This document shows, piece by piece, positions 35,373 through 45,812 of a stretch of DNA of 64,000 nucleotides. This DNA is from Gamsiella multidivaricata (Eukaryota; Mortierellomycota; Mortierellomycetes; Mortierellales; Mortierellaceae): positions 124,001 to 188,000 of the forward strand of contig NW_026251757.1 in NCBI RefSeq assembly GCF_025024155.1. Direction: 5' to 3'. Both the position numbers and the translations under genes were made by a program. The notes below the pieces were generated by a model. That model did no database searches and was not told the origin of the DNA. It saw nothing but the letters and a program-made list of their open reading frames with translations. Every line of letters begins with the position of its first letter. The stretch's first letter is position 1.

Positions 35373-35429
35373 TGAGTGTTGACCGTTGAGTCCATGGCAG
35401 TCTTGGACAGGGGAAGTACCCCTTCTCAA

Positions 35430-35450
35430 GTTTGTCTCGAAGAGACAAAC
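35430..35450. repeat. Perfect 9-bp hairpin in the left arm
   Basis: GTTTGTCTC / GAGACAAAC separated by 3 nt, mirrored at 45755-45775. It lies in the LTR/leader-like outer part of the arm. Confidence 0.7.
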
Positions 35451-35679
35451 CATCGACAGCAGCGTTCTAGGAACCGAGTCGGTACTTGTAATAAATCAAG
35501 GTCTACACTTAATATCTGTGACAATTAGACGAGACAAGAGAGGGATCTTTAATAAGGCTGTCTGGTTCCCTTTATATAGGTATATAGGTCACCAGGTGGT
35601 CTCTTCTATCTAGAGTGATCCTATGAAAGTGTCTGTCCGATATGGCACACCAATGCGAGTATAGACACTTCAAAGCAGC

Positions 35680-37310
35680 TCAGTCTTTCTTCATATTAAC
35701 AGGCAGTTGGGGAGTTTCAGGGCTTCGGAAATATGCCGGAGCTGCCGCCTTGACATGCTCACTGGCCTCATCAAAGGCATCGATCATAGCTTGAGGCAAC
35801 GGTCCCTTCTCGAGGTCTGTTAGGTTCTCCTCAAAATGCTTGATGTTCGAGACTCCAAGGATGATGGCGTCCTTAGCAGTGAGGCCAGCGTGGTGCCTGA
35901 TCCAGCGCAAGGACGCCTCCAGGAGGGTGAGGTCGTTGGCCTTGGCGGCCTTCTCCAAGGCCTTGACTCCTTCAAAGTGGAGCTTGTTCCAGTAGTATTC
36001 GCGGAAGCTACGTATCACATCCAGATGAAGTAGAGTGTTAATAATACGACCGGGCAAAAATATGAACAAAGGGGAGGTGAATTCTGCTAGACATTTTAGC
36101 TTTTCTTTTTTTTCCCCATAGTTTGAGAGTCCACTTACACACTTCCGAATCCTGTGTTTGGGTCGAAACGGCTGCCCTCTGCAATCTCATCTTCCTGGAA
36201 CTTGTACTTGCCCGATAAGAGACCACTGCTGATGACATTAAAGGCGTAGAAGGCGATGTTGTAGTGTCGCAGGCAAGGCAGCAGCTCGGGAACAACGGAG
36301 CGATTGATGGCATTATACTATTTAAGACCAAGGCAAACAGAGGTTGGCAAACAGAGGTTAGCAAACTAGAGTGATTGACTCGAGCTAACAGCGTTCATCA
36401 TGTTGATACCGTATACACTTACGTTGCCCTGGTAGACCGAAGGAAGCACGTAACCATTCTGCTTACAGTGCTCGTAAATCGTAGCCACATGCCACGATGA
36501 ATAGTTGGACAATCCAAGCTAGAATGAGTCGTTAACAACAATAGAATCCATGTTAGCATGTACCCTTCTGTTTGTTACTGTTTACCAAGGCAGCTGGCGT
36601 CAAGGATTAATTCTTACTCTCTCAAAGAGGCCCTCGCGGTAGAGTTCATCGACAGCTTTGAGTGTGACTTCAAAGGGTGTGTCGTAATCAGGTGCATGGA
36701 GATAGAAGATATCGACCTTGGTGGCATTCAAAGCTTCCAGAGACTGGCGGAAAATCTTGGGCAGTTGGATGGCATCGTGTGCTCCTGGATACCCAGGGAA
36801 GACTTTGGTGGCAATCTTGAAATGGGCCGTTGGCAGCTGGCTCAGGACCTGTGAGCAAATGTGGATAGGACAGTAGGGAGGATGAGGTAAGTGGATCTTG
36901 TTTTTGTGGCGCGTTGACGCGTTGACGCGTCGGTCCTGCACACATACCACCGTGATAATAACAGCGTCATCATCCTCCATTTTCACTTCGTGGGTTTTTT
37001 ACCTTCTCAGTGTCGCCTTGGCCATAGACCCTTGCTGTATCGATCTCGATGTGACCATAGGCGTGGAGCATCTCCAGAAACTCTCCGACCTTTTTCTTTC
37101 CACGGACACGGATCACAGTACTTTCGGTCGGTGTCTCCTCCAGTCCGAAAGTCATAGTCCTGTGGATGCATGTGGTTTTGCACAATTAAGAGTATCAGCA
37201 AACGGTACAAGTATTTACGTATGGTCATGAATCCTGCGTCGCATTATAACATGAAGGACGTACCCAAGGACGATGCGAGGGAGGTTACTGTTACTCTTGT
37301 TTGCCGACAT
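35680..37310 (-). CDS. Aldo-keto reductase (AKR7-like), left-arm copy
   Basis: Mirror image of the gene at 43895-45525, with the same six exons and a 345-residue product. It is transcribed away from the palindrome centre. The AKR catalytic tetrad is present: Asp and Tyr in [11 protein letters not shown], Lys in KIATKVFPG, His in IFYLHAPD. The family reduces aldehydes and ketones with NADPH; the closest named group is AKR7 (aflatoxin-aldehyde/succinic-semialdehyde reductases), judged from TMTFGLE near the start and [15 protein letters not shown]. An identical second copy implies doubled dosage if both are expressed. Confidence 0.9.
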
Positions 37311-37720
37311 GATGCTATTTCTTTGGAGCTGTCTGAATAGAGTAGGTCGGAAAGTGTGTGGATGAAGATGAGGATGTAGGGGACAACGCGAGGATATTTA
37401 TATTCAGGATCAAGGTCGTCAAGCACGTAAGTATACCGATCACGTTAAAGCGTCCTACGTCTTGTGCGCATATACACACGTATACGATACTGCGCCTCTG
37501 TCTGCGCAGTTGAACTGGATATAAAACAGCAAACTTGCAACTTATAATGCAGCATGGTAGGTGAAAACCTCGGTTTTGCTTTAATATTTCATAGGGCTCA
37601 TTACACTAGATACCGGCCATGAACTTATACGTATCTCTATTTTGCATATGCAACTCTTACTGCGCAGCCAGTCCTGGCGTATACGGGTGCATTACGCCCG
37701 AAGAACGATCGACGCGTCTG

Positions 37721-43800: not shown

Positions 43801-43810
43801 AATATAAATA
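43801..43810 (+). promoter_or_regulatory. TATA box of the AKR gene (right copy)
   Basis: AATATAAATA about 90 bp upstream of the ATG; the mirrored site is at 37395-37404. Confidence 0.6.
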
Positions 43811-43894
43811 TCCTCGCGTTGTCCCCTACATCCTCATCTTCATCCACACACTTTCCGACCTACTCTATTCAGACAGCTCCAAAGAAATAGCATC

Positions 43895-45525
43895 ATGTCG
43901 GCAAACAAGAGTAACAGTAACCTCCCTCGCATCGTCCTTGGGTACGTCCTTCATGTTATAATGCGACGCAGGATTCATGACCATACGTAAATACTTGTAC
44001 CGTTTGCTGATACTCTTAATTGTGCAAAACCACATGCATCCACAGGACTATGACTTTCGGACTGGAGGAGACACCGACCGAAAGTACTGTGATCCGTGTC
44101 CGTGGAAAGAAAAAGGTCGGAGAGTTTCTGGAGATGCTCCACGCCTATGGTCACATCGAGATCGATACAGCAAGGGTCTATGGCCAAGGCGACACTGAGA
44201 AGGTAAAAAACCCACGAAGTGAAAATGGAGGATGATGACGCTGTTATTATCACGGTGGTATGTGTGCAGGACCGACGCGTCAACGCGTCAACGCGCCACA
44301 AAAACAAGATCCACTTACCTCATCCTCCCTACTGTCCTATCCACATTTGCTCACAGGTCCTGAGCCAGCTGCCAACGGCCCATTTCAAGATTGCCACCAA
44401 AGTCTTCCCTGGGTATCCAGGAGCACACGATGCCATCCAACTGCCCAAGATTTTCCGCCAGTCTCTGGAAGCTTTGAATGCCACCAAGGTCGATATCTTC
44501 TATCTCCATGCACCTGATTACGACACACCCTTTGAAGTCACACTCAAAGCTGTCGATGAACTCTACCGCGAGGGCCTCTTTGAGAGAGTAAGAATTAATC
44601 CTTGACGCCAGCTGCCTTGGTAAACAGTAACAAACAGAAGGGTACATGCTAACATGGATTCTATTGTTGTTAACGACTCATTCTAGCTTGGATTGTCCAA
44701 CTATTCATCGTGGCATGTGGCTACGATTTACGAGCACTGTAAGCAGAATGGTTACGTGCTTCCTTCGGTCTACCAGGGCAACGTAAGTGTATACGGTATC
44801 AACATGATGAACGCTGTTAGCTCGAGTCAATCACTCTAGTTTGCTAACCTCTGTTTGCCAACCTCTGTTTGCCTTGGTCTTAAATAGTATAATGCCATCA
44901 ATCGCTCCGTTGTTCCCGAGCTGCTGCCTTGCCTGCGACACTACAACATCGCCTTCTACGCCTTTAATGTCATCAGCAGTGGTCTCTTATCGGGCAAGTA
45001 CAAGTTCCAGGAAGATGAGATTGCAGAGGGCAGCCGTTTCGACCCAAACACAGGATTCGGAAGTGTGTAAGTGGACTCTCAAACTATGGGGAAAAAAAAG
45101 AAAAGCTAAAATGTCTAGCAGAATTCACCTCCCCTTTGTTCATATTTTTGCCCGGTCGTATTATTAACACTCTACTTCATCTGGATGTGATACGTAGCTT
45201 CCGCGAATACTACTGGAACAAGCTCCACTTTGAAGGAGTCAAGGCCTTGGAGAAGGCCGCCAAGGCCAACGACCTCACCCTCCTGGAGGCGTCCTTGCGC
45301 TGGATCAGGCACCACGCTGGCCTCACTGCTAAGGACGCCATCATCCTTGGAGTCTCGAACATCAAGCATTTTGAGGAGAACCTAACAGACCTCGAGAAGG
45401 GACCGTTGCCTCAAGCTATGATCGATGCCTTTGATGAGGCCAGTGAGCATGTCAAGGCGGCAGCTCCGGCATATTTCCGAAGCCCTGAAACTCCCCAACT
45501 GCCTGTTAATATGAAGAAAGACTGA
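43895..45525 (+). CDS. Aldo-keto reductase (AKR7-like), right-arm copy
   Basis: Exons 43895-43941, 44046-44202, 44357-44587, 44687-44782, 44888-45066 and 45198-45525 join in phase to 345 codons plus stop, a full AKR7-size barrel. The tetrad Asp/Tyr ([11 protein letters not shown]), Lys (KIATKVFPG) and His (IFYLHAPD) is complete. [15 protein letters not shown] and the NADPH-side [15 protein letters not shown] near the C-terminus also fit. Expected role: NADPH-dependent reduction of reactive aldehydes in the cytosol. The intron after exon 2 contains overlapping ACGCGT words (44276-44294). A TATA box lies 90 bp upstream. Intact and, as far as could be read, identical to the left-arm copy. Confidence 0.93.
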
Positions 45526-45559
45526 GCTGCTTTGAAGTGTCTATACTCGCATTGGTGTG

Positions 45560-45812
45560 CCATATCGGACAGACACTTTCATAGGATCACTCTAGATAGA
45601 AGAGACCACCTGGTGACCTATATACCTATATAAAGGGAACCAGACAGCCTTATTAAAGATCCCTCTCTTGTCTCGTCTAATTGTCACAGATATTAAGTGT
45701 AGACCTTGATTTATTACAAGTACCGACTCGGTTCCTAGAACGCTGCTGTCGATGGTTTGTCTCTTCGAGACAAACTTGAGAAGGGGTACTCCCCCTGTCC
45801 AAGACTGCCATG
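45560..45812 (+). repeat. LTR-like segment in the right arm (mirrored at 35393-35645)
   Basis: Downstream of the AKR stop: TATATAAA at 45627-45634, a possible transcript-start/leader region after it, a TGT...TTACA-like stretch to about 45720, then the hairpin GTTTGTCTC-TTC-GAGACAAAC (45755-45775). The layout resembles an LTR followed by an internal leader, and it runs directly into Ty3/Gypsy coding remnants on the right side only. LTR borders cannot be fixed because no second LTR in direct orientation is seen. Confidence 0.4.

Follow-up and report, generated by a model that had tools for sequence, protein, structure and literature searches.

A near-perfect palindrome with an AKR7-like aldo-keto reductase gene in each arm in Gamsiella multidivaricata, possibly a recent inverted duplication, and its parallels at other reductase loci

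In a 64,000-nucleotide stretch of the Gamsiella multidivaricata genome (the window; bases 124001-188000 of the 288,399-bp contig C125, in a genome of 37.5 Mb and 180 contigs) we found a 10.4-kb near-perfect palindrome at 35393..45812, whose arms each carry the same complete aldo-keto reductase (AKR) gene. We lean towards reading it as a recent spaced inverted segmental duplication of an AKR7-like gene that would have arisen by template switching. A second AKR palindrome and a third AKR locus enclosed by perfect inverted arms were recovered from the same genome. The features of the palindrome and its left flank, in window positions, are as follows.

34345-34419: tRNA-Ala gene, in the left flank, upstream of the TIR element
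34483..35365 (outer limits about 34462-35372): short TIR element of ~0.9 kb, in the left flank, outside the palindrome
35393..37720: left arm, 2328 bp, pairs with 43485-45812, single mismatch at 35414
35680..37310, minus strand: predicted AKR7-like aldo-keto reductase gene, complete, six exons, 345 aa, exact spliced match to protein P0001, PF00248
37721..43484: centre, 5764 bp, mosaic of repeats; the whole centre is found once in the genome
37804..38556, plus strand: dispersed repeat, 76-87% like copies on C137, C151 and C176
39534..40608, plus strand: fragmented DUF6589 (PF20231) gene, 136.8 and 44.6 bits
40190..40394: short dispersed repeat of ~200 bp, 96-99% identical to 16 fetched copies; further copies exist
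41987..42493, minus strand: possible relic of a RecQ-type helicase, RecQ_Zn_bind 21.3 bits, under the Pfam curated cut-off of 25
43485..45812: right arm, 2328 bp, pairs with the left arm
43895..45525, plus strand: identical AKR gene, exact spliced match; exons 43895-43941, 44046-44202, 44357-44587, 44687-44782, 44888-45066 and 45198-45525
45556..45721, plus strand: dispersed repeat in the outer arm end, mirror copy at 35484-35649, ~71-83% like pieces on many contigs

The arms were aligned base by base, pairing position x with 81205-x. Over the 2328 bp, which take in introns as well as flanks, a single mismatch (35414/45791) was found, and exact spliced matching recovered the identical six-exon gene from both arms. 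The sequence-only reading had described the same palindrome, the same pairing with this sole mismatch and a complete AKR gene per arm, and all of this is borne out. The edges are sharp, as pairing is near-random directly outside 35393-37720 on both sides; the match can be extended by three bases, to 37723/43482, if a second mismatch at 37721 is allowed. Two near-identical segments in opposite orientation lie on one contig with an unrelated spacer and unrelated flanks, which is the arrangement of a spaced inverted segmental duplication. Used as a query against the 37.5-Mb genome, the arm gave two full-length matches, namely the two palindrome arms, and no third full-length copy was found there, all 20 first-pass candidates having been scored.

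The gene in the arms was assigned by family match, solved relatives and residues. Along all 345 aa its protein is 100% identical to a listed G. multidivaricata protein. Its predicted protein matches PF00248 (Aldo_ket_red) with 160 bits, and its best solved relatives (2clp, E 3e-73) are of the AKR7A type and go by the name of aflatoxin B1 aldehyde reductase. Asp56, Tyr61, Lys83 and His119 are all found at catalytic-type positions; we take the Asp/Tyr/Lys/His tetrad to be the residues expected of the AKR family. The gene thus appears to encode an AKR7-type aldo-keto reductase, sharing these positions with the aflatoxin B1 aldehyde reductases; its product would be an ordinary enzyme. Besides the AKR unit, each arm contains 410 bp upstream of the start codon and 287 bp downstream of the stop codon. 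The left copy reads from 37310 to 35680 on the minus strand by exact spliced matching. Both copies are intact and transcribed outward, and the pair is hence divergent.

Regarding the centre, stretches of it are 75-89% like sequences elsewhere in the genome. It had been described as full of mobile-element genes, which is borne out in part. The fragmented DUF6589 gene, a member of a family with 24 matches genome-wide (its own included), and the dispersed repeats agree with that description, but the RecQ_Zn_bind match is weak. On our reading of the sequence, the dispersed repeat in the outer arm ends looks LTR-like. The TIR element in the left flank has inverted ends of 171-178 bp, stops ~30 bp short of the left arm and has copies of 91-96% identity on C35, C54, C144 and C133. 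The word TTTGTCGTT stands at 34453 and at 35364, around this element, and is a possible target-site duplication. Scattered repeat fragments make up the picture of the right flank.

The first genome search with the C125 arm gave paired inverted matches on contig C8, where a second AKR palindrome is located (L074, C8:9500-19499). Its arms, at 900-3605 and 6489-9194 of that locus, are 2706 bp long with 0 mismatches and lie 2883 bp apart. An AKR of 322 aa can be read unbroken from each arm, both pointing outward, and the arm has 2 full copies in the genome. A piggyBac-like transposase (DDE_Tnp_1_7) is spread over two frames of the centre and has its own 16-bp inverted ends within it. Because the junctions and centres differ between C8 and C125 and the AKRs belong to different subfamilies in the tree, the two palindromes probably arose separately. 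We had also considered a divergent AKR pair conserved across Mortierellaceae, since neighbouring locus tags in relatives hint at AKR clusters; this was rejected, as the tree separates the subfamilies of C125 and C8.

At a third AKR locus (L076, C49:12500-20499) perfect inverted arms of 1058 bp were found at 95-1152 and 6313-7370, with 0 mismatches and a tRNA-Lys gene in each. They enclose an AKR gene that is intact and, in inverted orientation, an AKR relic ~71% like it. A third, partial copy of the C49 arm, with other ends, lies at C92:464067-464906 (840 bp, 98%). The fourth AKR7-type locus, on C68 (L077), showed no inverted repeat of at least 80 bp in the 10 kb fetched there, nor was there one in the 8 kb fetched around an AKR relic on C94 (L078, C94:290000-297999). 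That relic, at 3465-4600 of its locus, is broken and rearranged, with pieces 80-82% like the palindrome AKR. A 312-bp inverted repeat was seen on C152 (L075, C152:89500-95499), at 68-379 and 598-908; its halves are 98% alike and 218 bp apart, and it is possibly a short mobile element. No further inverted repeats of at least 1 kb were found in the rest of the window or in loci L075, L077 and L078.

Spaced inverted duplication of an ordinary gene is a known kind of event, and the parallels at C8 and C49 lift this one above routine. For each family we went through its listed matches and counted pairs on opposite strands with equal score and length less than 20 kb apart. The AKR family gave 20 gene places at 18 distinct loci among its listed matches, with 2 palindromes. 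No inverted pair was recovered in the control families, i.e. P450 (0/19), subtilases (0/30) and short-chain dehydrogenases (0/19, with 19 of 79 candidates scored), together 68 listed loci; all family counts are lower bounds. For the AKR7-type loci, defined as the four Gamsiella proteins within the best 120 of 6169 listed, two of four against 0/68 control loci gives a Fisher p of 0.002. Leaving out C125, the starting locus, gives p 0.042 for AKR7-type loci (1/3) and p 0.2 for AKR loci of all kinds (1/17). The control set is small and covers the listed gene places, and the enrichment of inverted duplications at AKR loci is suggestive, no more. With near-perfect palindromes at two of the four loci and a third AKR locus inside perfect inverted arms, a standing route of amplification plus conversion could be envisaged. 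In its full form, with AKR7-type loci as recurrent, selected sites of inverted duplication at which palindromic amplification and then arm-to-arm conversion tune a detoxification family, we regard this as rather unlikely.

As to mechanism, one complete AKR7-like transcription unit would have been copied in reverse orientation across old repeats, most likely by a fork, in replication or break repair, that took the opposite strand as template and then returned (MMBIR/FoSTeS or ODIRA-like). The outcome would be two divergent identical AKR genes and a doubled gene dose, and the duplication may have been kept for dosage. Fold-back amplification of a detoxification gene had been suggested from the sequence; it fits what we see and is strengthened by the second AKR palindrome on C8. 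The junctions inspected by eye have at most a few shared bases. Since no longer microhomology is seen there, it is the layout that points to template switching. The self-complementary GACGCGTC occurs near the inner edges, at 37711 and 43487, but also at 36924, 42448 and 44274.

Template strand switching has been proposed for inverted copy-number variants, and both yeast and human disease have served for the study of inverted gene amplification (Brewer et al. 2024, PMC10766186). The same account describes yeast palindromic junctions in which a secondary rearrangement lengthened the spacing to 1.1-34.9 kb. Inverted gene-bearing copies, a spacer and, as far as inspection by eye shows for ours, junctions with hardly any homology are common to our palindrome and to the ODIRA and MMBIR/FoSTeS events presented in that account. 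ODIRA has been described in yeast (PMC4689423). Its full product is an inverted triplication, in which an inverted copy is flanked by two direct ones, whereas only two full copies of the C125 arm were found in the genome. No other genomic copy spanning the right outer junction was found, so either arm could be the older. The proposal that the right arm is the older, with an LTR-type repeat running on from it into a decayed pol fragment of the right flank, was dropped in view of the missing spanning copy and of nil results from Pfam in the two frames tried there.

The sequence-only reading had left the age of the arms between a very recent duplication and uniformity kept by gene conversion, and this is where the main competitor to a recent duplication lies. 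The palindrome may be old, with arms kept identical by arm-to-arm conversion as in mammalian sex-chromosome palindromes and with mobile elements that entered the centre later; we consider this possible, though unlikely. The 300-bp stretches that adjoin the arms, towards the outside as well as towards the spacer, gave local scores within shuffled values at C125, C8 and C49 (at the C49 outer edge 94 bp were compared). The three inverted repeats have six edges between them, and the 50-bp margins there contain 1 mismatch in 300 positions (95% upper bound 1.8%), or 2 in 300 (upper bound 2.4%) with the C125 arm drawn three bases longer. Old arms maintained by conversion only should be worn at their margins and these are at most ~2% different there, which is why we infer that the duplications are recent, possibly with conversion on top; the sharp edges and the near-identity up to them, at all three repeats, argue against upkeep by conversion alone. 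The position of the mismatches cuts both ways, as their confinement to the edges, where conversion works badly, is the pattern expected after conversion of the inner arm. Pooled over the three repeats, edge and inner mismatches are 1/300 versus 0/5792 (Fisher p 0.049), and 2/300 versus 0/5795 (p 0.002) with the longer C125 arm, a figure that hinges on edge placement; the excess, however, amounts to one or two mismatches. An old palindrome would also suit the old repeats of the centre, many of them 75-89% like their relatives, though one repeat of 200 bp reaches 96-99%. The C49 AKR gene next to its diverged inverted relic likewise indicates that not every inverted AKR pair is young. The X-linked singleton palindromes of mammals described in PMC9122934 resemble ours in their near-identical inverted arms with the same gene once per arm; one arm given there is 30 kb, whereas here arms of ~2.3 kb lie on a fungal contig.

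Two further explanations were weighed. A tangled repeat path could produce such a structure, and a false inverted arm, made from chimeric or fold-back reads or by a wrong path through the assembly graph, would show just the near-perfect identity seen here; two further perfect inverted repeats stand in the same assembly. We nevertheless hold an artefact to be quite unlikely. Fold-backs from missed adapters are not expected to contain an unrelated 5.8-kb spacer or a second unique flank, and here the centre and flanks are unrelated, with the same layout repeated at C8. The palindrome lies far from the contig ends (~159 kb and ~119 kb), and the mismatch 35414/45791 together with four distinct junctions points to two real places. 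Nor is the assembly full of such pairs at comparable loci, given their absence from all 68 listed control-family loci. The inverted ends around mobile-element sequence, and the piggyBac-like transposase in the centre of C8, are what a mobile element with giant terminal inverted repeats and an AKR gene as cargo might look like, as had been suggested from the sequence. Target sites, copy number and the arm ends led us to reject this as highly improbable. In the 30-bp outer flanks, a search for exact shared words gave no target-site duplication abutting both outer ends of the C125 arms, and at C8 the flanks share a 7-bp word that is adjacent to the arm on just one side. The check for other copies with the same ends found the C125 arm and the C8 arm in full twice each, with no third, and the inverted repeats of C125, C8 and C49 share no end sequence. 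The C8 transposase, moreover, keeps its own inverted ends inside the centre. With no target-site duplication, no further full copies and no shared ends, a strand-switching copy event is left as the likeliest explanation for the palindrome.

The palindrome was not described in the literature that we searched for Gamsiella, fungal palindromes, inverted duplication and AKR, mostly outside subscription journals. New here are the AKR palindrome on C8 and the identical inverted tRNA-Lys arms around the C49 AKR locus. Near-identical spaced palindromes of natural origin, each arm carrying an intact gene, would, where they recur at paralogous loci of an early-diverging fungus, be an evolutionary counterpart to the amplification seen in yeast and human disease. 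Such palindromes would offer a simple test between short-lived, dosage-selected duplications and lasting ones kept alike by conversion.

Two minor observations concern other families. Several of the genome-wide DUF6589 matches have long open frames, and three of the best stand in a row on C147 (9367-22845), ~6 kb apart. In the window itself, three subtilisin-like (PF00082) matches lie in tandem on the plus strand at 54236-58688.
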